Shown here piece by piece: positions 1 to 15,787 of a stretch of 40,076 nt of DNA (positions are counted from its first letter, which is position 1; each line of letters opens with the position of its first letter). The stretch is from Ilumatobacteraceae bacterium. GTDB lineage: Bacteria > Actinomycetota > Acidimicrobiia > Acidimicrobiales > Iamiaceae. The position numbers and the translations under genes are program-made. Below the pieces are notes generated by a model, which saw only the letters and a program-made list of their open reading frames with translations, made no database searches and had not been told where the DNA came from. The DNA is taken from assembly GCA_025463265.1 (NCBI GenBank), contig JAOBWH010000053.1, positions 1-40,076 on the forward strand, written 5' to 3'.

Positions 1-127
1 CGACGCCCAGCGCGCCGCGCCGGACCGCGAGCGGGCCCACGACCTCGCCGCCACCATGGGCATCCGCCTCGCCCTCGGGCCCACCGAGTACCCGACCTCC
101 GACACAGCACCGGACGCAGCGCAGTGA
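1..127 (+). CDS. C-terminal end of an AfsR-like TPR regulator (partial)
   Basis: Only the last 41 codons are in the window, read from base 2 to the TGA at 125-127. The residues, including ERAHDLAATMGIRLALGP, resemble the tail of the next gene's product (TEARSLAAELGIVLELPVP), so this is probably the TPR C-terminus of a paralogous BTAD/AAA/TPR regulator. Its stop overlaps the next gene's GTG start in a GTGA, so the two are probably translated from one message. The identity of the missing N-terminal part is inference. Confidence 0.55.
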   Translation, partial: DAQRAAPDRERAHDLAATMGIRLALGPTEYPTSDTAPDAAQ

Positions 128-3100: not shown

Positions 3101-3711
3101 TCCTCATCGCCCTCGAGCGGGGGACGCTCGGTTCCTACACCGGCCAGCTCGCCGAGCTCGTCGAGACCCAGCCGCTCGTCCCCAGCTGGGGCATCGGCCT
3201 GGCTCGTGCCCTCGTGGCTGCGGGCGATCTCGAGGCGGCGACGGAGATCGCGCACCGGTACCTCGGCGATCCCGGCCTCAACGTCCACCCCCGCTCCGTC
3301 GCCCGCTACACGGTCGCGGCGATGGCCGCCGAGGTCTGCTGGCTCACCGACGATGCGGTCCTCGCCGAGCACCTGCTCCTGGAGCTGGCCCCCATCTCCC
3401 ACCGGGTGGTGGTCGCCGGCCTGGCGGCGGCGTCGACCGGGCACCTGGTGCGCCACCACGGCCTGGTCCTCGCCGTGGCCGGCGATCTCGATGCCGGCGA
3501 GGCGCTCCTCGACGTGGCGGTGGCGTCGTCGGCGGCCGCCGGGTTCCTCCCCGCCAAGGCCCACGCCCTCTGGGAGCGGGCCATCGTGCTGCGGCGGCGA
3601 GGTGGCGAGGGCGATGAGGCCGAGGCCGAGCGGTGCGCCACGGAGGCCCGCTCCCTGGCGGCCGAGCTCGGGATCGTGCTGGAGCTCCCCGTCCCGGAGC
3701 GGACCGGCTGA
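124..3711 (+). CDS. AfsR/SARP-family transcriptional regulator (winged helix, BTAD, AAA ATPase, TPR)
   Basis: This 1195-residue protein is a large SARP-type activator. Residues ~14-105 form an OmpR-like winged helix (VLGPVRAW, LIDDLWSGEPP, LQSYLSNLRKAL). Residues ~112-255 are the bacterial transcriptional activation domain. A Pro/Glu/Ala linker (~262-305) leads to an AAA/STAND ATPase with Walker A GEAGVGKTR at 339-347 and Walker B LLVIDDLQWAD around Asp450-Asp451. The remaining ~600 residues are Ala/Leu-rich helical repeats of TPR type. The length matches full AfsR-like proteins rather than short SARPs. The GTG start at 124 overlaps the upstream stop, so it is likely translationally coupled. 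Family members bind direct heptamers spaced 11 bp, and exactly such a site lies in the next intergenic region, so the giant gene at 3887 is the obvious target. The signal sensed is unknown. Confidence 0.9.
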   Translation: MSSDGRAGRDGPPAQVRVSVLGPVRAWCGDQPANLGGQRQRAVLARLALSGGDAVPVERLIDDLWSGEPPPSATGTLQSYLSNLRKALGGDPALIERIGAAYRLHLADGALDADRFVTLVARAARESGTARLDLLDEALALWNGDAVSDFADEPWARGDVVRLDQLHLTAQHDRFAVLLDLGRHAVAVGELEAAVAAHPLHEPFAAQLVLALYRCGRQAEALRAVERARSTVAEEIGLPLGPELTELADRVLMQDPGLALDPGAAPTASAERSGPTGAPEPPETAEPAEPAESPLPLPPAVTERRTRSGFVGRSDERAVLDEAWSHAMSGERHLLVVSGEAGVGKTRLAQETCRALHARGAYVLWGRCTPEHLIAYQPIVESLRTALRSLPVERVRELVEPRPPLGLLLPELAADGVDLPARTGRYELYEALADLLGEVTLATPMLLVIDDLQWADPSTLTLLDQVLANPRGGRVLIIATIRRPAGRPTQEVDRFLAEARRARRFSAVELEGLDREAASELLEERGVAVAPSDLDAVLERTAGNPLFIEALADPGDVSSLTDARDLPSSVRDLFDQRFHEVDERTAAVTTAAAVIGQRVDLDLLGAVAGLDQASLLDALDEAIAVGLLAEDEDIGWVTFPHALVRQALVARTTRNREARLHLAVADAMEARPPGPDHASTLAQHLFAAGRLCPPERASGAAVAAGRRALEVVADEEALIWARRALDVLAPVADRGDPWARAQAESLLLLAEANRLLGNLDDARSALSAVTSLARTHRDAAVLARSAQQWALVSGAIGFSFGGLDDALISLMDEALAALGPDDHAERATLLAWGSLALNPGHDRDLQEARSIAALEAAVQVPDLAHVHALTLFARHVAVGGASGLDERLSLLAPLRSAARGWSELEVIARALAVMDLLEADRVPEADAAMEELRSFVEPIHRPALDTFVTFFDAMWATLRGDLDRAEERSNHGLTIGTEAHGDNAATAWAGQQFLIALERGTLGSYTGQLAELVETQPLVPSWGIGLARALVAAGDLEAATEIAHRYLGDPGLNVHPRSVARYTVAAMAAEVCWLTDDAVLAEHLLLELAPISHRVVVAGLAAASTGHLVRHHGLVLAVAGDLDAGEALLDVAVASSAAAGFLPAKAHALWERAIVLRRRGGEGDEAEAERCATEARSLAAELGIVLELPVPERTG

Positions 3712-3749
3712 ACGAGCCGACAGAGCGAGCCCCGCCTCCGGCGCACCGC

Positions 3750-3767
3750 TCCGACCTGCCCGTCGGA
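3750..3767 (+). terminator. Weak hairpin after the AfsR-like gene
   Basis: TCCGAC and GTCGGA form a perfect 6-bp stem around a 6-base loop, about 40 bases after the regulator's stop. There is no T tract, so it may be a weak terminator or chance. Confidence 0.25.
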
Positions 3768-3793
3768 CTCGTGTCAAGACCCTGCCAGCGGCT

Positions 3794-3866
3794 CCAAGCG
3801 CGGGGCAGAAGCGCAGGTCAGCGGCATCGTCTTGGTTCCAAGCGGGTCCCAAGCGGGCTCCAAGTG
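3794..3866 (+). promoter_or_regulatory. Candidate SARP/AfsR operator: CCAAGCG heptamers at 11-bp spacing
   Basis: CCAAGCG at 3838-3844, CCAAGCG at 3849-3855 and CCAAGTG at 3860-3866 are spaced exactly 11 bp apart, inside three adjacent 11-mers (3836-3868). A further CCAAGCG at 3794-3800 is 44 bp (four periods) upstream of the first. Direct heptamers with an 11-bp period are the known target architecture of OmpR-fold SARP regulators, where the last repeat lies about 8 bp before the -10. The adjacent AfsR-like gene supplies a likely ligand. The motif is seen directly; the regulator-site pairing is inference. Confidence 0.7.
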
Positions 3867-3874
3867 GCCCGGCG

Positions 3875-3880
3875 GATCGT
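3875..3880 (+). promoter_or_regulatory. Candidate -10 element giving a leaderless start
   Basis: GATCGT lies 8 bp after the last heptamer, the spacing known for SARP-activated promoters, and keeps the A at position 2 and T at position 6 of a -10 hexamer. A start 6-7 bases downstream falls on the ATG at 3887. No Shine-Dalgarno sequence is visible between it and the ATG, which fits a leaderless mRNA. Confidence 0.4.
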
Positions 3881-3886
3881 GTTGGC

Positions 3887-6800
3887 ATGGACACGACCGC
3901 CATCTCCATCCCCGCCCCGAGCGACGCCCCGAAGCGTCGGCGACGGGTCAAGCTCCTCGCCCTCGTGGCGGGTGTCATCCTCGTCGCCCTGGGCGCCGGG
4001 GCCACTGCCGCGCTGGCGGCCGGGCCCGACAAGGGGACGTTGCGCTACGAGTGGTCCATCGGTGACCGCTACGGGCTCGATGCCGACAGCGACGGCATCG
4101 TCGACAACCCCGACGGCATCAAGGACCTGGCCAAGGACAAGGCGTGGATCCAGAACCCGACGTACCAGCTGACGTTCGACAGCTGCGCCTCGCCGGCGGT
4201 CACCGAGCGCAGCGTCACGGGCTACACGCTCAAGCTGACCGGTCCGGAGAACAAGACGGTCGACGGCACCAGCTGCAAGATGACCGTGCCCGTCACCAAG
4301 CTCGGTGAGTACAAGGCCAACCTCGACATCAAGGTCGGCCCGGTCGTCGTCGACAGCCGCGAGGAGACCATCACCCCCAAGGACAACCTGATCGTCTCGG
4401 TCGGCGATTCGGTTGCTTCGGGTGAGGGCAACCCCGACACGCTCGAGTCCGGCACGTTCTGGTCGCCCAAGTGGCAGAACAAGCAGTGCCACCGCACGAG
4501 CCTCGCCGGTCCGGCGCAGGCCGCCCTCCGCATGGAGCGGCGCGACAAGCACTCGGCAGTCACCTTCGTCCACCTCGCCTGCTCCGGTGCGTCCATCACC
4601 TCGGGCCTGCTCGGCGACTACGACGGCCAGGACCCCTCGGCCGGCACCAAGCTCAAGCCCCAGATGGACCAGCTCAAGGAGCTGGTCGGCACCCGTCCCG
4701 TCGACGCCATGACGGTGTCCATCGGCGCCAACGACGCCGAGTTCTCGGCGGTCGTGAAGGCGTGCCTCATCCAGACCAACTGCCACCTGCCCAACGGCTC
4801 CGGCCAGAAGAACGGCGTGGAGCTCTTCGACGAGAAGGCCCCCCTCATCACCAACAACTACGCCCTGCTCGACGCCCGCCTCGACAAGATGGCGAAGCAG
4901 GAGGCCGGCGACGTGAAGCTGCGCGGCAAGGTCTTCGTCACCGAGTACATGGACGTCACCAAGGACGACGACGGCAGCTACTGCACCGGCAAGACCGCCA
5001 AGGAGCGCGAGGCCGGCAAGGACGCCGGCGGCACCGCCAACACCGACGGCATCAACGCCGCCGAGATGCAGTGGGCCGACACCTACGTCCAAGACGGCCT
5101 CAACAAGCGGGTCACCGACGCCATCGAGAAGGCCAACAGCAACGGCGGCGCCGAGATCCAGTTCGTCGGCGGCATCAAGGCCAAGTTCGCCAAGCACGGC
5201 TACTGCGCCCAGGACCGCTACATCCGCACGCTCACGGAGTCCGGCCTCTACCAGCGCGGGGTCGACGGCGCCTTCCACCCGAACGCCGAAGGCCACCTGT
5301 TCGGCTACGCCGACCGGATCGAAGACACCGTGGCCCCCGCGCTGAAGATCGAGGGCACCAAGGCTCCGCTGGAGTTCGACGCCGCCGGCCAGCTCGGCGA
5401 CGACCTCGGCTCCTGGCTCGCCACGCTCGACCAGACCGGCGCCCTGGACCAGGTCACGAACGCCCTGCCGTTCGGCGCCCGCGAAGAGGTGCAGCGGTTC
5501 ATGCGGGACAAGTTCTTCGGCAAGTTCCTCCCCTTCGTGCAGGACACCCTCACCGACGGCAACACCAAGATCACCGAGCTGTCCGAGAAGCTCGATGACC
5601 TCGACGGCGACGGCAAGCCCGGCGTCGATGCGTTCGGCGTGGCCAACCTCGACGTGGACATGACCGGCGACATCCAGCCCAAGCTCCCGTCGAAGACCTA
5701 CGACATCACCTTCACCGTGAAGGGCTCCGTGGCCCTCGACCCCGACATCGCCCTCAGGGCGGGCAAGCTCGGCCTCGCCGGCCAGAAGACCGAGGGCAAG
5801 GCCGAGTTCTCCCAGACGGTGAAGCTCCACATCGACTTCACCAAGCCCAAGACCGACCGCTTCCACCTGACCATCCCCTCCGACGGGCTGAACGGTGAGA
5901 TCAAGATCAACCTCGGCGGCGACTTCGGCGCCACCGACCCGACCGTCGGCCCCGACCGCGACCCGATCTCGTTCACCTCCGGCGGCCTCGGCCTGAAGGC
6001 CAAGGGCGTGGCCAAGGCCGACCTGGCCATGGGCTACACGATCAAGGACCCCAGCGGCGACGGCAGGATCGACGCCACCGAGATCGGCAACCCCCTCGAC
6101 TGGGTGAAGGCCCGCTGCACCAGCGGCTCGGCCAAGGTGGACCTCAAGGCGTCGAGCACGCTCGTCGGCTTCACCAACACCATCGGCAAGGTCCAGCTCG
6201 ACGACACCAACCTGTGCGACGGCGTCAACGCCCCCACGGTGGACCTGTCGGACCTCGGCACCTTCGAGGGCGTCACGGTCGTCGACTTCGTCAACGGCCT
6301 GGCCCAGATGACCACGGCGCTCAAGAACATCCAGGACGCCAACGAGGTCGACCTCCCGTTCGTGAAGGAGGGCCTGTCGGGCCTCATCTCCACCAACGAG
6401 AAGCTGGTGAAGTTCTTCACCGACAACGGCCTGACCGACCCGAACAACCCGATGGCCACGGTCACCTTCGACCCCACCAAGAAGCCCGACCTGGACACGA
6501 TCGACGAGATCCTGCCCAAGCTGGCGCAGTCGCTGGGCGTCCCGCTCGACCAGCTCAAGCCCCGCGTGGTCGACAAGCGCCTGCTGCTCGACCTCAACCT
6601 CAACCTGGACCCGCCCGCCCAGACCAACAAGGGCACGCTCGACTTCGGTGATCAGCTGTCGAAGACCGGCGTGGTGGACATCACCGCCTCCACGAAGGCC
6701 ACGATCGACCCCGCCCTGACCGTGAAGCTCGGCCTCGGCATCGACCTGCGGCCCGACCTCGAGGTCGCCGACCGCTTCTTCTTCCAGGTGGGCGATGGCC

Positions 6801-9800
6801 CCGAGATCACGGCCGACGCCAAGATCACCGCCGACGCCAAGCTGAGCGCCAAGCTCGCGCTGCTGGACCTCGACCTGGCCGACGACAACGCGGCCGGCGC
6901 CGTCACCCTGCTGGACCGCAAGGACGCCACCAAGCCGCTGCTGTCGATCGATCTCAAGGGCACCGTCGACGCCACGCCCGACGACAACCGGCTGACCTTG
7001 AAGGAGCTGACGACGCCGTCGGCCAAGTCGCCCTTCGCCGTCACGCTCAACGGCAAGGTCCCGGCCTTCGGCCTCACCGCCGACGCCAAGCTCGCCGGCA
7101 CCACCTTCGCCTCCGGCAAGGTCAACATCGCCTGGCCCGACATCTCGGACCCGAAGCTGCTGACGGTCTCGGCCGACGCCAACTTCAAGGACAACCTGCT
7201 CCCGTTCGCCTACGACCCCGCCAACCCCCGGGCCACGATCACCCAGATCCTCAAGGCCGCCCACACCGCGGTGAAGCAGCTGCGCTCGGGCCTGACCACC
7301 AACCCGGCCATCGCCCGCAGCCTGCCGCTCACCGGCAAGTCAGCAGCCGAGATCGAGCCGGTCCTGGCCAAGGTCGAGGACAAGCTGGCCCAGCTCATCG
7401 AACTGGACGAGACCCTCACCCTCACCCAGCTCGAACAGCGGGTGGAGAAGGAGCTGGGCAGCGCCCTCGGCGTGGCCAACGACCAGCTCCCCGGCCTGCT
7501 CACCTTCCGCCTGCAGAAGCAGACCACGGACAAGCCCGCCGCCCTGGTGATGGACCTGAAGGTCGGCTTCTGCTCCAACAGCCGCAAGGCCCTGGCCGGC
7601 TGCAACAAGATCAGCGAGCTCGGCCCGTACCCGCTCAACCTGAGCCTCGGCCAGAGCGCCGACTCGATGGCCGCCGTCACCGCCGACGGCCGGGTCACCA
7701 TCGGCTACGACGCCCGCATCAACCTGACGGTCGGCGTCGAGTTCCCCCGGGTGAACGTGGACGCCAACGGCGTGCCCGTCGCCCTCCCCACCGGCAGCCT
7801 CCCCAAGGTGTTCGTCCAGGACACGTCGTCGTTCGAGCTCGGGATCGGCGCCAGCGTGACCGGCCAGTTCGCCGGCGTGCTCGGCCCGGTCGAGGTGAAG
7901 ATCGGCAACGGCACCAAGGCCGCCGACGCCCGCCTGGCCGCCCGCTACGTCATCCGCTCCAAGACGGCCGACGCCGCCAACCCGCAGCGCATCTATGACG
8001 CCGCCATCCTCGACTGGGTCAAGTCGATCATCCCCGACCCCACCAAGGGCGGGACGATCAAGGACACCACCGCCACCAAGTCGAACTGCCCCGACGCGGC
8101 CGACGCCTGCGCCACCTTGCCCATCACGATCAACGGCGCCTACGTGGGCGACGTGACCTTCTCCGCCCCCGACCTGCTGAGCCCCTCGGCCTGGGTCGTC
8201 CACGGCGAGGACGTCATCGACAACCTCGGCAACGAGAACATCCAGTACGCCATCCTCATCGGCGGCATCGAGTCGTTCGTGCAGCGCCTCGAGGCCAGCC
8301 TCAAGGCCATGCCGGCGGGCAAGAACATCCCGCTGCTCGGCGTCGACCCGATGGCCGGCGCCAAGGTCCTCGAGGACTTCCGCACCGGCTTCGTGGTGCC
8401 GGCCCAGGAGCTGGTCAACAAGATCAACGCCGCCAACAAGGCCAGCGTGGTCCAGACCAACATCCAGGACTTCCTCTACGACAAGATCGGCCCAGAGAGC
8501 AGCCTGAAGCTGCTGCGTGACGGACCCGACGCGGACACCGCCGTCACCAAGGCCGACATCGTCGTCGACCTGAAGTGCAAGATCAGCGGCGTCGTCAAGA
8601 CCTGCGAGCCCAACGACAACGCCACCACCATCGAGGACCTCCAGATCAAGGTCCCGCTGGCCAAGGGCGGCGAGGTCACCTCGAAGCCGCTGGACTCGGG
8701 CTTCCCCGGGCTCCGGCTCAAGAGCACCGACGGCTTCTCCGCCAAGGCCGGCTTCGAGATGGACCTGGCGTTCGGCATCGACCGGACCAACGGCTTCTAC
8801 ATCCCGACCAACGCCTTCGGCACCCAGCCCGAGCTGCGGGTCCAGGCCACCGCCTCCCTGCCCTCCCAGATGGACGCCCAGCTGGCGTTCATCCCGGTGA
8901 AGATCGTCGACAAGACGCCGGGCGTGCCCGAGGTGGCCGCCGTGGTCGGCGTCGACCTCGCCGCCGGCGGGTCGGACAACAAGATCACGCTGGGCCAGCT
9001 GGGCAACGCCCAGATCACCCCGTCGCTCCAGGCGTGCGCCAACGTCAAGCTCGGCCTCGAGACCGGGGGCTCCAAGAAGTTCCCCGCCTTCAAGACCGAC
9101 CTGTCGCTGACCGGCGGCTACACCTGCCAGGCCGGCGGCGTCACGGGCGCCCCCGCCAACGACGGCGGCATCGCCATCGCCTTCGACAACGTCCGGGTGA
9201 ACGCGGGCTCGGTGATCAACGACTTCGTCGGCCCGGTCGCCAAGACCGTCCAGAAGTACACGAGCCCCATCAAGCCCACGATGGACGCCCTCCAGAAGCC
9301 GATCCCCGGCGTCAAGGAGGCGGCCCGCACCATCGGTGCCAAGCCCCCCACCTGGTGGGAGCTCATGGAGCTCGTGAACCAGATCAAGATGGGTGCCGGC
9401 GGCGATGACCAGATGGCCATGCTCCGGAAGGTCAAGACCGTCATGGACCTGGCCGACCAGCTGGCGCCCGGCGTGGGCAACGCCCAGGACATCGCCCTCG
9501 GCTCGTTCAAGCTCGACCCGAAGGTCGCCGCCGATCCGAGCGCCTCCACCAACTTCGACGCCCTCCTGCCCAGCGGCAACATGAACACCGGAGGCAACAA
9601 CACCGACGTCATGACCCGCCTCCAGGCGGCCGGCATCCCGGTGGCGCTCTCCAGCAAGATCCAGAAGACGGCGCCCTACCAGTCGTTGACCTTCCCGGCC
9701 TTCGAGAAGCCCCAGACGCTGTTCCAGCTCCTCCTCGGCAAGGACGTGCCGCTGGTCCGCTTCGAGACGGGCGGCTCCTTCCTCCACGTGCCGATCGGCC

Positions 9801-12800
9801 CCTACCGGTTCCCGATCGGCCCGGCCCAGGTGTACTTCGGCGGCGCCCTCGACGTGCAGGGCCACTTCGCCGCCGGCTTCGACACCTACGGCATCCGCCA
9901 GGCGTACTCGATGCTCACCGACGACGACCCCAGCAACGACGGCTTCGGCTCGGTCGCAGCCGGCGTGCTCGGCGGGTTCTACCTCGACGACAACGATGCG
10001 GCGGGCAACGACGTACCCGAGCTGCGGGCCCAGGCCGAGGTCACGGTCGGCGCCGGCGCCGGCATCCCCGGCTTCGGCATCTTCGTCGAGGGCGGCGTCC
10101 ACGCCGACGCCAACGTCGACCTGAAGAGCACCGACGGCAAGGTCCGCCCGCAGCAGGTGATCACCCAGCTGCGCAAGAACCCGAACCCGGTCTGCCTGTT
10201 CGACGCCAAGGCCCGCATGGACGCCTTCGTCCGGGTGGTGGCCTCCAACCCCATCAAGGACGTGGTCTTCCCGGTGGCCGACACGGTCGTCCTCGACGAG
10301 CCCGACCTGACCGACTTCTGCAACACCCAGCAGGACGACTCCCTGGAGAAGGTCACCGGCCGCCAGTACACCGACGGCACCCTCGAGCTGTTCACCAGCG
10401 CCGACACCGACGCCATCTTCGTGACCCAGCGGGCCAACGGGAAGGTCGACGTGTCGTCCAAGGGCGTGGTCGAGACCTTCGAGGGGATCTCCAAGATCTT
10501 CGTCGACGGCGCCGGCGGCAACGACCAGATCACCCTGGTCAAGGACAGCGCCAGCTACACGGCCATCCCCGCCCACGTGTGCGGCGGCGTCGGCAAGGAC
10601 CACCTCACCATCGAGATCGGTCCCGCCACCGTCTACGGCGACGTGGGCACCGGCACCAAGGCCGTCCAGAACGGCGTCGACAAGCCCCTCCCCTGCGCCA
10701 CTGGCGCCGGACCGGGCGCCGACTCCATCCAGACCGGCGCCTACGCCGACACGGTGAACGGCCAGGACGGCGGCGACGAGATCGCCTCGGGTGCCGGCAA
10801 CGACACCGTCAACGGCGGCAACGCCGATGACGTCCTCCTCCCCGGCAGCGGTGACGACACCGTCGACGGCGGCGGCAACAACGACACGGTCAGCTACGTG
10901 GACCGCTCCGCCGAGCCGATGACCGTGGACCTCCGCGACGGCAAGACCAGCGGGGCCACCGGCACCGCCGAGAAGGACGCCCTCACGAGCATCGAGGCGG
11001 CCATCGGCGGTCCCGACAACGACACCATGTGGGGCAGCACCTCGGTCCCCGTCCTCGACGGCGGCACCGGCGACGACACCCTCAACGGGAGCTCGGGCAC
11101 CGACGTGCTGATCGGCTCCGGCAACAACGACGTGCTCATCGGCAACGGCGGCGCCGACATGCTGTACGGCTCCTTCGGCAACGACCGCATGGTCGGCGGC
11201 GAGGGCGGCGACATCTACGAGGGCGGCGAGGACGCCGGCGACATCGCCGACTTCACCGCCGAGACCGACCCGGTCAGCGTGACCCTGGACGGCAAGGCCG
11301 ACGACGGCAAGGCCGACCAGACGGTCATGGACAACGTCGCCGCCTCCACCGACATCGTGTGGGGTACGCCCAAGGACGACCGCCTGGCGGCCGGCACCAA
11401 GCCGGCCGAGCTCCAGGGCCGAGGCGGCGACGACACCGTCGACGGTCCCGGCCTGCTCATCGGCGGCGACGGTGACGACCTGGTCCGCGGCTCGGACCAG
11501 AAGGACACCCTCCAGGGCAACGCCGGCAAGGACGAGCTGTACGGCGGCGCCGAGGAGGACACCCTGGACGGCGGCACCCAGGACGACTACCTCGAAGGTG
11601 GCCTCGGTCCGGACCGCATGGCGGGCGGCGACGGCTTCGACGAGGTCAACTACGCCAACCGCACCAACACCATCGTGGTCCGTCTCACCGACGGCGCCCG
11701 CGACGGCGAGGGCGTCGGGGGCTCCAGCAGCGTCAACAGCGCCGACTGCGTCGGCCTCTATTGCGACGAGGTCAAGCCCGACAACGAGAAGATCGTGGGC
11801 GGCTCCGGCGACGACACGCTCGAGGGCGACGTCTTCGACCAGACCCTCGTGGGCGGTCCCGGCGAGGACTACCTGCGGGGCCACGCCGGCATCGACCGGT
11901 TCGAGGGCGGTCCGAACAAGGACGACGCCCGAGACGAGGACTTCTACTACTCGAAGCCGGATGCAGCCGGAACGGGTGACACCTACCTCATGGGCGACGG
12001 CGACGACTACGTCGGCGGCACGGGCGGCGACGAGCACATCGAGCTCGGCACCGGCAACGACCGCGGCGCACTCAGCGGCACCGGCAAGGTGTTCCTGGAC
12101 ATGGGCACGGGCAGCGACAGCTTCGGCACCGACAAGGGTGATCACACCGTCATCGGCGGCGAGGGCGACGACAGCCTGGACACCTACGCCGGCACCAAGG
12201 ACATCGACATGGGCGATGGCGACGACGTCGTCATCCTCCGCACCGGCGCCTCGGCCAAGCGGGCCGTGATGGGCCAGGGCGACGACGAGTTCGACGGCGC
12301 CGACGGCAACGACACCGTCGACGGTGGGCCCGGCGCCGACTTCCTCACGGTCGGTTCCGGAAACGACACGGTCACCGACCTCGAGGGTGCCAACACCATC
12401 TACGCCGGCACGGGCAACGACACGGTCACCACCGGCCCCGGCTCCGACGAGGTCCGCGGCGAGGACGGCACCGACGTCCTGGTCGACGGCGGCAACGACG
12501 GCATCGCCCGCACCGGGTTCGGCCCCGCTCAGTACATCTGGGGCGGCGCCGGCGACGACACCCTCACCGTCAACGGCACCAGCCCGGTGGAGGACAACGT
12601 GACGGGCGATGCCGGCAAGGACACCATCCGAGCCGGAGCCGGACCGCAGTCCATCCAGGGCGGCGAGGACGCCGACGACATCGACGGCGGAGCCGGCGAC
12701 GACCGCATCAACGGTGGCAACGGCGATGACGTCCTGCGGGGCGGCGCCGGTGACGACCTGGTGCAGGGCGGCGAGGGCACCAACGTCCTCTTCGGCGGCG

Positions 12801-15787
12801 AAGACGCCGACCGCATCGAGGGCGGCGCCGGACAGGACACGGTCAGCTACGCCGACCGCACCAGTCCGGTCCGGGTCTCCATCGGAACCGGCGGCGCCGA
12901 CGACGGCAACGCCACCGATGAGTCCGAGACCGTGCCCGCCAAGCGAGACGACATCTCGTACCAGGTGGAGACCGTCATCGGCACCGAGCTCGATGACGTG
13001 ATCCGAGTCGGATCGCTCAACTCGAGCGAGATCGGCAACATCGACGGCAAGGGCGGCAAGGACACCCTCATCGCCGAGCGCCGCTCGAAGCTCGTGGGCG
13101 CAGCCGGCGACGACACCCTGATCGGCAGCCCCTTCGCCGACGTCCTCGAAGGCGGGATCGGCAACGACCTGCTCGCAGGCGGTGCCGAGGCTGACACCGA
13201 GAACGGTGGCGACGGCAACGATCGCCTCGACCAGGGCACCGCCGTCGACGGTGGCGACGCCCTCGTCGGCGGTCCGGGCACCGACCTGGCCGACTACTCG
13301 GCCCGTCCCGCCGGCCAGGCGATCGCCTTCACCCCCGGGGCCGGCGGCGCCAACGACGGCGCCAGCGGCGAGGCGGACAACGCCGATGCCACCGTGGAAT
13401 CGGCCCGGACCCAGGGCTCCCCCACCAAGGCGCCGACGGTCACGGTCACCATGGCCAAGACCACCGCCGCCGTAGGCGAGACCGTGAACGCCACGGTCAC
13501 CGTCACCGGCACGGAGGGCATCCCGGTCGGCTCGGTCGAGGTGACCGAGAACATCGTGGTCGGCGCCGCCGCCCTCGACTCCACCGGCAAGGCCACGATT
13601 CCGGTCCGGTTCGTGAACGCCGGCAACCGCAACGTCACCGCCACCTTCAAGGGCGGCGCCACCTACCGCTCGGCGACCTCGGCTCCGGCTGCGGTCACCG
13701 TCGGCAAGGTCACGACCGAGGTGAAGCTCACCCCGCTGAACTCGCCCACGAAGACCGGCGACCTCTCGAAACTGCAGATCGAGCTGCGCCCGACCGTGGG
13801 CAACGCCGAGATCAGCGGGGTGGTGAAGGTCACCGAGGGCGCCACGCAGCTGTGGAGCGGCAACGTCACCACCAAGGCGGAGATCACCCTCCCGACGGCA
13901 CTGGCCGCCGGCCGCCACGATCTGGTGGCCACCTGGCCCGGCACCAACGAGACCACCCCGGCCACCGGCACCGCCACCGTCATGGTGACCGCCGACGGCA
14001 AGGGCACCACCGCCACCACCGTGGCATCGAGCCTCAACCCGGCGGCGAACGACACCGCGGTGACCCTCACCGCCACGGTCGTCCGCACCTCGGGCTCGGG
14101 GTCCCCCACCGGGAAGGTCACCTTCCTGGCCGGGTCGGGCGCCACGGCCGAGGTCCTCGGCACGGCCACCGTCAACGAGGCCGGCACGGCATCGATCAAC
14201 CGGGCGCTGCTCGCCGGCACCCACCAGATCACCGCCCGCTACGAGGGCAACGACACCCTCGGTGCCTCGACCTCGGCGGCCATCACCCAGCAGGTCACGG
14301 GCACGAGCGGCCCGACCAAGGTGGCCACCACCACCAAGGTCGTCCGCACGGGCGACGACCTGGTGGCCACCGTGACGCCCGCCTCGGGCACCGCCACCGG
14401 CCAGGTGCGCTTCAGCATCGACGGCATCGACCAGGCGCCGGTGGCGCTCACCGGCACCACCGCCAAGCTGGCGCTGCCGGCCCTGGCCGCCGGCGACCAC
14501 ACGGTCACCGCCCGGTACCTCGGGTCGACGACGCACGCGCCGTCCACCTCCCCCGAGCTGGTCGTCACCGTCACGGTGACCAAGGTCAACACCACCACGG
14601 CCCTGGTCCGCTTCGGCGACAGCCTGGTGGCCACGGTGACGCCCGCCTCGGGCAGCGCCGTCCCCGCCGGCACGGTGACGTTCACCATCGACGGGGCGTC
14701 CAAGCCCCCGGTGACCGTCGCCGACGGCAAGGCGACCCTGCCCCTGCCCGCCCTGGCGCCCGGTGACCACACGGCCACCGCCGCTTACTCGGGCTCGACC
14801 GGCCACAACGCCTCGACCTCGGCCTCGCTGAAGATCACCGTCAGCACCGGTGCCACCCCTGGCGCCCCCGCCGCCCCCACGGTCTCGGCCATCACGGCCA
14901 CCACGGGGACGGTCACCTGGAAGGCGCCCACCAACACGGGCGGCAGCGCCATCACGGCGTACCGGGTGACGGTGAGGGCCGATGCGGCCGGCACCGTGGT
15001 GGCCCAGTTCGAGACGGCCAGCGCCAACCCGACCGCATCGGTCACCGGGCTCGCCCCCGGCCGGCTGTACCGGTTCAGCGTGGCGGCCCGCAACGGGTCC
15101 GGCATCGGCAGTGAGTCGGCCCTGTCGGCCCACGCCCTGCCCCCGTTCAAGACCATCGACGCCTTCACCACCCAGCAGTACACGGACTTCGCCAACCGGG
15201 TCCCCACCGCTGCTGAGCTGACGACCTGGCGCTCGAAGGTCGCAGGCGGGACCGCCCCGAAGGACCTCCTGAGCGAGGCGGTGGACTTCCCCTACGCCGC
15301 CCGGTACGCCCCCATCGTCCGGCTGTTCAACGCCTACTTCGGCCGCCTGCCGGACAAGTCGGGCCTGGACTACTGGACCGGGAAGTACCGCAACGGCACC
15401 GGCCTCAACACCATCTCGGCCAACTTCGCCGGCTCCAACGAGTTCAAGAACAAGTACGGGGCCCTCAACAACCGGGACTTCGTCCTGCTCATCTACACCA
15501 ACGTGCTCCAGCGCACCCCCGACGCCAGCGGCGTCAACTACTGGACGGGCAAGCTCGACAAGGGCACGTCGCGAGGCGTGGTCATGACGAACTTCTCCGA
15601 GAGCAGCGAGTACCTGCGCAAGGCCAAGCCGACGACGGACCTCGTGGTCTCGATGCGGTCCATGCTCCAGCGGGTCCCCACGGTGGCCGAGCGCACCGAG
15701 TGGGAGGCCGCCCTCAAGGCCGGAACCCCTCGCTCGGAGCTCCTGAACTGGATCCTCACCCAGCCCGCCTACGACGCCCGGGTGTAG
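3887..15787 (+). CDS. Giant secreted SGNH-hydrolase / RTX / Ig-like / DUF4214 surface protein
   Basis: The 3966-residue product starts at ATG 3887; the frame stays open further upstream but overlaps the regulator and lacks signal-peptide character there. A basic KRRRR patch and a hydrophobic stretch (~17-44) form a signal peptide or anchor. Residues ~165-475 are a secreted SGNH/GDSL hydrolase: SVGDSVASGEG with Ser175, GAND at 280-283, and DGAFHPN with Asp460 and His464. Residues ~620-2090 hold four beta/helix repeat units not matched to a known family. Residues ~2207-3140 are an RTX array of GGxGxDxxx-type nonapeptides, calcium-binding in known families. Ig-like repeats (~3183-3654), one FN3 domain (~3657-3753) and DUF4214 repeats (~3755-3966, LFNAYFGRLPDKSG, NVLQRTPDASG) follow. 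It is probably an exported, calcium-stiffened adhesin carrying an esterase or lipase head. The substrate is unknown. The gene is followed by two hairpins. Confidence 0.88.
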   Translation: MDTTAISIPAPSDAPKRRRRVKLLALVAGVILVALGAGATAALAAGPDKGTLRYEWSIGDRYGLDADSDGIVDNPDGIKDLAKDKAWIQNPTYQLTFDSCASPAVTERSVTGYTLKLTGPENKTVDGTSCKMTVPVTKLGEYKANLDIKVGPVVVDSREETITPKDNLIVSVGDSVASGEGNPDTLESGTFWSPKWQNKQCHRTSLAGPAQAALRMERRDKHSAVTFVHLACSGASITSGLLGDYDGQDPSAGTKLKPQMDQLKELVGTRPVDAMTVSIGANDAEFSAVVKACLIQTNCHLPNGSGQKNGVELFDEKAPLITNNYALLDARLDKMAKQEAGDVKLRGKVFVTEYMDVTKDDDGSYCTGKTAKEREAGKDAGGTANTDGINAAEMQWADTYVQDGLNKRVTDAIEKANSNGGAEIQFVGGIKAKFAKHGYCAQDRYIRTLTESGLYQRGVDGAFHPNAEGHLFGYADRIEDTVAPALKIEGTKAPLEFDAAGQLGDDLGSWLATLDQTGALDQVTNALPFGAREEVQRFMRDKFFGKFLPFVQDTLTDGNTKITELSEKLDDLDGDGKPGVDAFGVANLDVDMTGDIQPKLPSKTYDITFTVKGSVALDPDIALRAGKLGLAGQKTEGKAEFSQTVKLHIDFTKPKTDRFHLTIPSDGLNGEIKINLGGDFGATDPTVGPDRDPISFTSGGLGLKAKGVAKADLAMGYTIKDPSGDGRIDATEIGNPLDWVKARCTSGSAKVDLKASSTLVGFTNTIGKVQLDDTNLCDGVNAPTVDLSDLGTFEGVTVVDFVNGLAQMTTALKNIQDANEVDLPFVKEGLSGLISTNEKLVKFFTDNGLTDPNNPMATVTFDPTKKPDLDTIDEILPKLAQSLGVPLDQLKPRVVDKRLLLDLNLNLDPPAQTNKGTLDFGDQLSKTGVVDITASTKATIDPALTVKLGLGIDLRPDLEVADRFFFQVGDGPEITADAKITADAKLSAKLALLDLDLADDNAAGAVTLLDRKDATKPLLSIDLKGTVDATPDDNRLTLKELTTPSAKSPFAVTLNGKVPAFGLTADAKLAGTTFASGKVNIAWPDISDPKLLTVSADANFKDNLLPFAYDPANPRATITQILKAAHTAVKQLRSGLTTNPAIARSLPLTGKSAAEIEPVLAKVEDKLAQLIELDETLTLTQLEQRVEKELGSALGVANDQLPGLLTFRLQKQTTDKPAALVMDLKVGFCSNSRKALAGCNKISELGPYPLNLSLGQSADSMAAVTADGRVTIGYDARINLTVGVEFPRVNVDANGVPVALPTGSLPKVFVQDTSSFELGIGASVTGQFAGVLGPVEVKIGNGTKAADARLAARYVIRSKTADAANPQRIYDAAILDWVKSIIPDPTKGGTIKDTTATKSNCPDAADACATLPITINGAYVGDVTFSAPDLLSPSAWVVHGEDVIDNLGNENIQYAILIGGIESFVQRLEASLKAMPAGKNIPLLGVDPMAGAKVLEDFRTGFVVPAQELVNKINAANKASVVQTNIQDFLYDKIGPESSLKLLRDGPDADTAVTKADIVVDLKCKISGVVKTCEPNDNATTIEDLQIKVPLAKGGEVTSKPLDSGFPGLRLKSTDGFSAKAGFEMDLAFGIDRTNGFYIPTNAFGTQPELRVQATASLPSQMDAQLAFIPVKIVDKTPGVPEVAAVVGVDLAAGGSDNKITLGQLGNAQITPSLQACANVKLGLETGGSKKFPAFKTDLSLTGGYTCQAGGVTGAPANDGGIAIAFDNVRVNAGSVINDFVGPVAKTVQKYTSPIKPTMDALQKPIPGVKEAARTIGAKPPTWWELMELVNQIKMGAGGDDQMAMLRKVKTVMDLADQLAPGVGNAQDIALGSFKLDPKVAADPSASTNFDALLPSGNMNTGGNNTDVMTRLQAAGIPVALSSKIQKTAPYQSLTFPAFEKPQTLFQLLLGKDVPLVRFETGGSFLHVPIGPYRFPIGPAQVYFGGALDVQGHFAAGFDTYGIRQAYSMLTDDDPSNDGFGSVAAGVLGGFYLDDNDAAGNDVPELRAQAEVTVGAGAGIPGFGIFVEGGVHADANVDLKSTDGKVRPQQVITQLRKNPNPVCLFDAKARMDAFVRVVASNPIKDVVFPVADTVVLDEPDLTDFCNTQQDDSLEKVTGRQYTDGTLELFTSADTDAIFVTQRANGKVDVSSKGVVETFEGISKIFVDGAGGNDQITLVKDSASYTAIPAHVCGGVGKDHLTIEIGPATVYGDVGTGTKAVQNGVDKPLPCATGAGPGADSIQTGAYADTVNGQDGGDEIASGAGNDTVNGGNADDVLLPGSGDDTVDGGGNNDTVSYVDRSAEPMTVDLRDGKTSGATGTAEKDALTSIEAAIGGPDNDTMWGSTSVPVLDGGTGDDTLNGSSGTDVLIGSGNNDVLIGNGGADMLYGSFGNDRMVGGEGGDIYEGGEDAGDIADFTAETDPVSVTLDGKADDGKADQTVMDNVAASTDIVWGTPKDDRLAAGTKPAELQGRGGDDTVDGPGLLIGGDGDDLVRGSDQKDTLQGNAGKDELYGGAEEDTLDGGTQDDYLEGGLGPDRMAGGDGFDEVNYANRTNTIVVRLTDGARDGEGVGGSSSVNSADCVGLYCDEVKPDNEKIVGGSGDDTLEGDVFDQTLVGGPGEDYLRGHAGIDRFEGGPNKDDARDEDFYYSKPDAAGTGDTYLMGDGDDYVGGTGGDEHIELGTGNDRGALSGTGKVFLDMGTGSDSFGTDKGDHTVIGGEGDDSLDTYAGTKDIDMGDGDDVVILRTGASAKRAVMGQGDDEFDGADGNDTVDGGPGADFLTVGSGNDTVTDLEGANTIYAGTGNDTVTTGPGSDEVRGEDGTDVLVDGGNDGIARTGFGPAQYIWGGAGDDTLTVNGTSPVEDNVTGDAGKDTIRAGAGPQSIQGGEDADDIDGGAGDDRINGGNGDDVLRGGAGDDLVQGGEGTNVLFGGEDADRIEGGAGQDTVSYADRTSPVRVSIGTGGADDGNATDESETVPAKRDDISYQVETVIGTELDDVIRVGSLNSSEIGNIDGKGGKDTLIAERRSKLVGAAGDDTLIGSPFADVLEGGIGNDLLAGGAEADTENGGDGNDRLDQGTAVDGGDALVGGPGTDLADYSARPAGQAIAFTPGAGGANDGASGEADNADATVESARTQGSPTKAPTVTVTMAKTTAAVGETVNATVTVTGTEGIPVGSVEVTENIVVGAAALDSTGKATIPVRFVNAGNRNVTATFKGGATYRSATSAPAAVTVGKVTTEVKLTPLNSPTKTGDLSKLQIELRPTVGNAEISGVVKVTEGATQLWSGNVTTKAEITLPTALAAGRHDLVATWPGTNETTPATGTATVMVTADGKGTTATTVASSLNPAANDTAVTLTATVVRTSGSGSPTGKVTFLAGSGATAEVLGTATVNEAGTASINRALLAGTHQITARYEGNDTLGASTSAAITQQVTGTSGPTKVATTTKVVRTGDDLVATVTPASGTATGQVRFSIDGIDQAPVALTGTTAKLALPALAAGDHTVTARYLGSTTHAPSTSPELVVTVTVTKVNTTTALVRFGDSLVATVTPASGSAVPAGTVTFTIDGASKPPVTVADGKATLPLPALAPGDHTATAAYSGSTGHNASTSASLKITVSTGATPGAPAAPTVSAITATTGTVTWKAPTNTGGSAITAYRVTVRADAAGTVVAQFETASANPTASVTGLAPGRLYRFSVAARNGSGIGSESALSAHALPPFKTIDAFTTQQYTDFANRVPTAAELTTWRSKVAGGTAPKDLLSEAVDFPYAARYAPIVRLFNAYFGRLPDKSGLDYWTGKYRNGTGLNTISANFAGSNEFKNKYGALNNRDFVLLIYTNVLQRTPDASGVNYWTGKLDKGTSRGVVMTNFSESSEYLRKAKPTTDLVVSMRSMLQRVPTVAERTEWEAALKAGTPRSELLNWILTQPAYDARV
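5740..10150 (+). repeat. Coding region of four ~320-340-residue repeat units
   Basis: A helical segment recurs at residues 798, 1118, 1454 and 1777 (INDFV, FVQRL, then a LPL or IPLLG turn), 320-340 residues apart. A beta segment with the pattern GID/GFD, then F-F/Y, then PE(I/L/V)xxxA recurs near residues ~945, ~1282, ~1622 and ~1980. The DNA copies are strongly diverged, so the repeat shows only in the protein. The alignment was made by eye. Confidence 0.55.
10507..13306 (+). repeat. RTX calcium-binding nonapeptide array
   Basis: About 2.8 kb encodes dozens of Gly/Asp-rich nonapeptides such as GAGNDTVNG, GSGDDTVDG and GGAGDDLVQG. At DNA level, ggcgacgacacc-like units recur. In known RTX proteins these form a parallel beta roll that folds on binding calcium outside the cell. 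Runs are interrupted by non-repeat spacers with a DTVSYADR/DEVNYANR motif, dividing the array into several blocks. Confidence 0.85.
13433..14846 (+). repeat. Tandem bacterial Ig-like domains, last two nearly duplicated
   Basis: Four Ig-like modules of roughly 90-140 residues each contain a TxTVTxxxG, then GxVxF or GSVEV, then AGxHxxTAxYxG pattern. The final two are 264 bp (88 codons) apart and share a stretch around 14360-14395 and 14624-14659 with only two base differences, showing recent duplication or conversion. Confidence 0.75.

Follow-up and report, generated by a model that had tools for sequence, protein, structure and literature searches.

How is the gene for a giant secreted protein switched on in a bacterium of the Ilumatobacteraceae, and where does its mRNA begin? 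In a 40,076-nt stretch of DNA from this organism (hereafter the window), an AfsR-like regulator gene ends shortly before the giant gene, and a heptameric repeat lies between the two. SARPs are best known for activating antibiotic clusters, and the initial annotation had proposed that a SARP here directly drives a giant surface protein through a leaderless mRNA. Sequence comparison makes it quite probable that positions 3838-3889 form a SARP-activated leaderless promoter, with SARP-B and SARP-A, or a paralog, as putative binders. The three-fold repeat is very probably the landing site of the neighboring AfsR-like activators. The layout of the site, its conservation, its recurrence and its linkage to genes are direct observations.

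The regulators and the giant protein

SARP-A (P0001; 124-3711, forward strand) is a 1195-residue AfsR-like regulator made up of an OmpR-type DNA-binding domain, a BTAD, an AAA ATPase and a long C-terminal part. Its AfsR-like identity, already proposed in the initial annotation, is borne out by these domains and by its best solved relatives, AfsR (8hvr, 1.9e-39) and EmbR (2fez, 1.6e-31). Pfam recognizes BTAD (PF03704) at 3.9e-34, AAA_16 at 5e-26, and PF00486 with 26.4 bits for a cut-off of 26.2, and the protein has the order that marks the SARP/AfsR type, an N-terminal OmpR-type DNA-binding domain and then BTAD. At a Pfam threshold of 0.001 there is no TPR family, nor any LuxR-type or cyclase family as in the PimR/SARP-LAL type. 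With 159.3 bits against NCBIfam NF053617, for a cut-off of 1430, SARP-A is not an AfsR equivalog.

At the start of the window (2-127, forward strand) lies the 3' end of another AfsR-like gene, SARP-B (named by gene order), whose TGA (125-127) overlaps the GTG start of SARP-A at 124. In the related genome G010, an MBL-fold hydrolase, SARP-B, SARP-A and the giant gene follow one another on one contig and one strand. In the window's own genome (G000), the MBL gene and the 5' part of SARP-B sit on a separate contig (C96), and the middle of SARP-B is absent from the assembly, so the junction between SARP-B and the window is a reconstruction. Several SARP paralogs, including one on contig C23, exist in the same genome, and therefore the binder need not be unique: it could be SARP-A, SARP-B or the C23 paralog.

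The giant gene (3887-15787, forward strand) encodes 3966 amino acids with RTX repeats and Ig-like, FN3 and DUF4214 domains (Pfam); a signal peptide and SGNH-type esterase motifs are visible by eye. The surface location in the proposed "giant surface protein" is conjectural, and "giant secreted protein" is the better name. The structural model of its N-terminus has low confidence (mean pLDDT 59), and the fold matches include carbohydrate, sialic-acid and acetylxylan esterases, which we take to be SGNH enzymes, as well as chitinases and others. Sequence comparison of this N-terminus with solved structures yields E values of 0.013 and 0.085 only, and the SGNH assignment is drawn from motifs seen by eye and a weak model. 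Of the 24 family genomes, three, among them the own one, have a match to the N-terminus, in every case right behind a relative of SARP-A; the other 21 have none. Some match to the 494-residue N-terminus is found in 46 of 397 order genomes, most of them short or weak, and the strongest, besides those in the own genome and G010, are in G142 and G040.

The proposed operator and promoter

The 175 bp that separate the SARP-A stop from the giant gene, as first reported, hold three forward-strand units: CCAAGCG at 3838-3844, CCAAGCG at 3849-3855 and CCAAGTG at 3860-3866. They are followed by an 8-bp gap (3867-3874), a putative -10 (GATCGT, 3875-3880) and, 6 nt after it, the ATG at 3887-3889, which is also the predicted transcription start. 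All of these elements were found on the sequence exactly where they had been described. When the A of the ATG is taken as +1, the units extend from -49 to -43, -38 to -32 and -27 to -21, and the -10 from -12 to -7. The triple repeat is the single match in the window when up to 3 mismatches are allowed, and none of 100 dinucleotide shuffles reaches it. According to PMC10936776, the direct repeats of SARP promoters are spaced by 11 or 22 bp, and 8 bp separate the final one from the -10. The proposed SARP/AfsR target layout agrees with this rule: heptameric direct repeats stand 11 bp apart over the -35 region, with the 3' repeat 8 bp from the -10.

A fourth copy had also been claimed, and is indeed present: CCAAGCG at 3794-3800 (from -93), 44 bp or four periods of 11 bp upstream of unit 1. 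It belongs to an element, TCCAAGCG (3793-3800, forward strand), that lies exactly 44 bp upstream in the own genome, G010 and G006, as counted on the sequences. Roughly halfway from the distal to the proximal repeats, the three-genome alignment shows another conserved element, CAGGTCAG (3814-3821, forward strand), which differs from the CCAAGCG unit. Immediately before unit 1 there is an inverted half-copy (CTTGG-TT-CCAAG, 3831-3842), and inverted copies likewise precede the sites on contigs C23 and C24 of the own genome.

The spacer before the giant gene has conserved islands, which coincide with the repeats, the distal copy, the -10 and the ATG. When the three spacers are aligned, the invariant columns number 8/8 in the distal TCCAAGCG, 8/8 in unit 1, 5/8 in unit 2, 6/8 in unit 3, 5/6 in the -10, 5/6 in the 6 nt before the ATG and 3/3 in the ATG itself, against a background of 28/80 in the more distant upstream part, 3/14 and 2/14 in the stretches that separate the elements, and 2/8 within the 8-bp gap. 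The -10 reads GATCGT in G010 and GATCCT in G006, and is separated from the ATG by 6 nt in all three genomes.

There is no in-frame ATG, GTG or TTG between 3614, within the SARP gene, and 3887. In G010 an in-frame stop lies 81 nt before the ATG, and none of these codons occurs in frame after it until the ATG itself. G006 has one in-frame ATG 36 nt upstream, within its own operator and absent from the other genomes. The reported lack of a ribosome binding site fits the three genomes, in which no conserved Shine-Dalgarno is seen by eye. Neither a sigma-70-type promoter nor a terminator scored within 3600-4100. A standard sigma-70 promoter in this interval was accordingly rejected.

Recurrence of the site

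The scan pattern comprises three units resembling TCCAAGCG at 11-bp intervals and, 8 bp after the last, xAxxxT, with a score of at least 17; the motif, the form of the -10 and the thresholds were picked after the window had been seen. In 13 stretches (222,693 bp) it detects 10 sites at a spacing of 11 bp and 0 at spacings of 9, 10, 12 and 13, three of the ten being the window and two contigs found via the motif, and the other stretches having come via SARP or giant-gene homology. Varying the gap to the -10 in the same stretches gives a clear peak at 8 bp. Without the -10 or at lower scores the 11-bp spacing is unremarkable, with 101 matches at score 15 vs 169 at spacing 9. In 79 named loci fetched with a SARP alignment (1,200,554 bp), a score of 17 leaves 4 sites at spacing 11, two of them overlapping strands of locus L103, vs 0-1 at spacings of 8-10 and 12-14; at score 15 with the -10 there is no excess (14 at spacing 11 vs 19 at spacing 9). 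The gap to the -10 peaks at 8 bp in these loci as well.

A genome scan for the 11-bp periodicity had been suggested as a check, and its outcome is divided. A simpler pattern (three CAAG cores and xAxxxT, one mismatch), run on the 24 family genomes, finds 20 sites in 11 of them at 11-bp spacing, vs 2 at 10-bp spacing; the reversed controls give 7 and 11, respectively. This supports the periodicity, whereas loose counts in the own genome do not: 5 vs 14 in the reversed control for three units with up to 3 mismatches, 16 vs 38 for two units with up to 1 mismatch, and 8 vs 7 in a further scan. Since the loose scans do not clearly rise above their control, and their matches lie mostly in coding-looking DNA (by eye), they are not used as counts, and the other sites proposed in the own genome rest on position, -10 and gene class. 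Further out, a phylum-wide scan finds 17 sites vs 11 reversed, which is weak as a count. With the ATG included in the pattern, the 397 order genomes yield 13 sites in 11 genomes vs 5 reversed, and several of the 9 contexts read have no SARP within 1.5 kb or no clear start. A de novo repeat search that uses no motif returned three matches in 11 loci, one of them a known site (G040).

The start codon and the 5' end

The distance to the start codon was compared in 18 sites, chosen by operator and -10 only. They comprise 10 of the 12 rows of the 13-stretch scan (L074 and a shifted register of L065 left out) and 8 of the 17 other rows, besides the window, of the scan covering the SARP-homology loci. 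Left out of the latter were the minus strand of L103, which overlaps the plus site, L078, L114 and L127, and five that are from outside actinobacteria by title (L150, L162, L172, L173 and L179); L069, the G040 cupredoxin site, L108 and L117 were kept despite a score of 15. In 8 of the 18 the distance from the -10 to an ATG or GTG is exactly 6 nt and in 1 it is 7 nt, and every other offset up to 29 occurs twice at most. The eight are the three giant promoters, the MBL promoter of G010, two sites in G040, and one each in an Actinomycetes MAG and Mycobacterium sp. M26; as the three giant promoters are orthologous, they represent six independent places at most. The remaining 9 sites are leadered, their start codon being at neither offset, so leaderlessness is not obligatory. 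That the 3887 transcript would be leaderless, as predicted from the position of the -10, is well supported by sequence.

With no terminator scored after SARP-A, transcripts of the SARP operon may also run on into the giant gene. It could even be that the operator is a SARP operator and that the gene is read mainly from the MBL-SARP-B-SARP-A operon, or from a start further upstream, on an mRNA that is not leaderless. The missing terminator, the single strand shared by these genes in G010 and the leadered half of the related sites would all fit such an arrangement. We nonetheless find it unlikely, because the -10 stands 6 nt from the ATG in three genomes with no conserved ribosome site (by eye), and because the exact start-codon offset recurs at unrelated targets.

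Another pair of genes in the own genome (contig C185; L011, 4871-4922) has a SARP gene divergent from a hemerythrin gene and the repeats CCCACCC, CCGACCC and CCAATCG, found by eye. They keep the 11-bp spacing and the 8-bp gap, followed by CACGAT, 6 nt and an ATG.

Comparison with known systems

The closest likeness in the repeat itself is to PimR, the SARP-LAL that acts at pimM of Streptomyces natalensis. Its footprint covers three CGGCAAG heptamers with 4-bp spacers (PMC5930380, PMC3367932); the number of units, the spacers and the CAAG core are the same here, where the consensus is YNCAAGYG. The PimR operator is described as having no overlap with the -35, and the pimM leader as 148 nt long (PMC3367932), whereas the present operator abuts the -10 and the start codon. 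SARP-A also differs in having no LuxR-type C-terminus in Pfam, and its target is not an antibiotic regulator. AfsR at afsS is a large SARP with an ATPase part, to which the AAA domain of SARP-A would correspond, and is the best solved relative of SARP-A. Its box spans -40 to -19 over a poor -35, with repeats 11 bp apart and the same spacing to the -10 (PMC10936776). The differences are the repeat sequence, three units here vs two, the absence of equivalog status for SARP-A, and the target, a giant secreted protein. Because the site matches both the 11-bp/8-bp SARP rule and the CAAG heptamers of PimR, its layout is that of a SARP operator. Leaderless mRNAs, which are ordinary in actinobacteria and make up 22.2% of mRNAs in S. 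avermitilis (PMC8780764), likewise have the start codon at the 5' end, here a predicted one, and no Shine-Dalgarno. What sets the present case apart is that several unrelated targets show the same fixed distance from a SARP operator to the start codon.

The winged helix is common to OmpR-type regulators and SARPs, which can also have direct repeats in common, and the DNA-binding domain of SARPs falls in the Trans_reg_C family, as does that of OmpR-type regulators. A real operator could then belong to a different regulator of the OmpR type, such as a PhoP-like response regulator, instead of a SARP; PhoP also recognizes the AfsR repeats at afsS (PMC10972967). This is less likely still, given where the sites are found. 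They lie beside or before SARP genes or operons in eight contexts (C29 and C96 of the own genome, G010, G006, G013, two in G015, and G040), as well as near a SARP gene in Gordonia, Nocardia and Mycobacterium loci, these last having been fetched by SARP homology. Sites accompany MBL-SARP operons on contig C96 and in G010 and G015, and a cupredoxin-MBL-SARP operon in G015; in G013, a site comes after a SARP gene and before two genes, one without a Pfam family and one MBL-like. The CAAG core, moreover, is that of a footprinted SARP, PimR. A SARP remains the preferred binder.

Genes behind the sites

From the sites and their neighbors, the regulon looks wider than the giant gene. Twelve of the 20 family-genome sites, the window's included, precede four classes of genes: giant (3), cupredoxin lipoprotein (3), hemerythrin (5) and MBL (1; contig C87 of G019, named by eye). 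All five hemerythrins are confirmed by PF01814, which has 71 matches across the 24 genomes. Four further sites stand before a VTT/DedA gene, a subtilase, an intradiol dioxygenase and a methyltransferase-like gene (by eye, G015), and the last four have no clear target. In the own genome, candidate sites precede a cupredoxin gene (C153), a hemerythrin-MMPL pair (C24) and a fatty-acid hydroxylase gene near the C23 paralog. The C24 candidate (L205, 1501-3042) has two mismatches, and the hemerythrin gene comes before the MMPL gene.

For both MBLs of the own genome, the score against the ODP family exceeds the cut-off. The name cupredoxin comes from the fold, because Pfam gave no family: the top fold matches are CuA, auracyanin and azurin-type proteins, and His117, Cys182, His207 and Met212, presumably the type-1 copper ligands, are invariant in four sequences. 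G040, which belongs to another family, gathers a BTAD-AAA SARP, an MBL-like gene, a cupredoxin gene and a giant SGNH-type gene in one locus (L195, 1-9017; contig C196), with two divergent operator-type sites that both have a start codon at offset 6; its MBL-like protein has no Pfam domain, so the name rests on resemblance. On contig C155 of G010 (L222, 1501-2235), a site with an ATG at offset 6 precedes a VTT/DedA gene, and the start of the contig matches part of the giant gene.

Outside the order, in loci that were all fetched by SARP homology, the genes preceded by sites are hemerythrin-like (two Mycobacterium species and a Nocardia), MMPL-like (Mumia) and FAD-oxidase-like (Gordonia); the hemerythrins (L105, L108, L142), the MMPL (L104) and the FAD oxidase (L117) are named by eye. 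The 10 contexts read out of the 17 in the phylum-wide scan hold 3 hemerythrins, 1 MMPL, 2 FAD oxidases and 4 other or unclear genes, with one hemerythrin and one FAD oxidase named by resemblance and the others by Pfam. A literature search, largely without subscription papers, returned no paper linking BTAD, SARP or AfsR regulators to hemerythrin.

A model for the promoter

A model can be proposed for binding, activation, start site and signal, all four of which we infer. Two or three AfsR-like protomers, probably those of SARP-B and SARP-A encoded upstream, would occupy the YNCAAGYG units, which share one face of the DNA and cover the place where a -35 is missing. By contacting RNA polymerase and the sigma factor, as AfsR does, the activator would bring the polymerase to the weak xAxxxT -10, and the transcript would begin with the first letter of the start codon at 3887. 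The distal unit at 3794 may serve as a conserved auxiliary site. The promoter of the SARP operon carries the same type of operator, which would lead to positive autoregulation. The regulon would consist of secreted and O2/metal-binding proteins, namely the giant SGNH/RTX protein, ODP-type metallo-lactamases, the cupredoxin lipoprotein and hemerythrin-MMPL. Given this apparent composition, the regulators could be responding, via their ATPase part, to a signal from redox, O2/NO or the envelope.

That the repeat arose by chance in GC-rich DNA can practically be dismissed: in the own genome the looser matches are not clearly more numerous than in the reversed control, yet none of 100 shuffles reaches the triple repeat, the islands are conserved in two relatives, and sites number 20 vs 2 at 11- vs 10-bp spacing.

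The SARP layout and leaderless mRNAs are already known; what is new is the target set and the ruler that runs from operator to start codon. Because this ruler consists of repeat, 8 bp, xAxxxT, 6 nt and start codon, SARP binding would set the starts of transcription and translation together. More tentatively, and on balance with some reserve, an AfsR-type SARP lineage across the phylum may run an O2/NO- and metal-handling regulon of hemerythrins, ODP-type metallo-lactamases, cupredoxins, MMPL and giant secreted esterase-like proteins through triple YNCAAGYG operators, with many promoters built on the one ruler. If so, the C185 pair, with other repeats and the same ruler, would make geometry rather than sequence the conserved trait. 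Should the proposed reading be right, it would make it possible to test clearly whether a leaderless start can be fixed by an activator, and SARP targets could be read from DNA by one ruler, often down to the start codon, giving a direct route to assign regulons to uncharacterized BTAD regulators. Large SARPs of another actinobacterial lineage would then control secreted and O2/metal-binding proteins.
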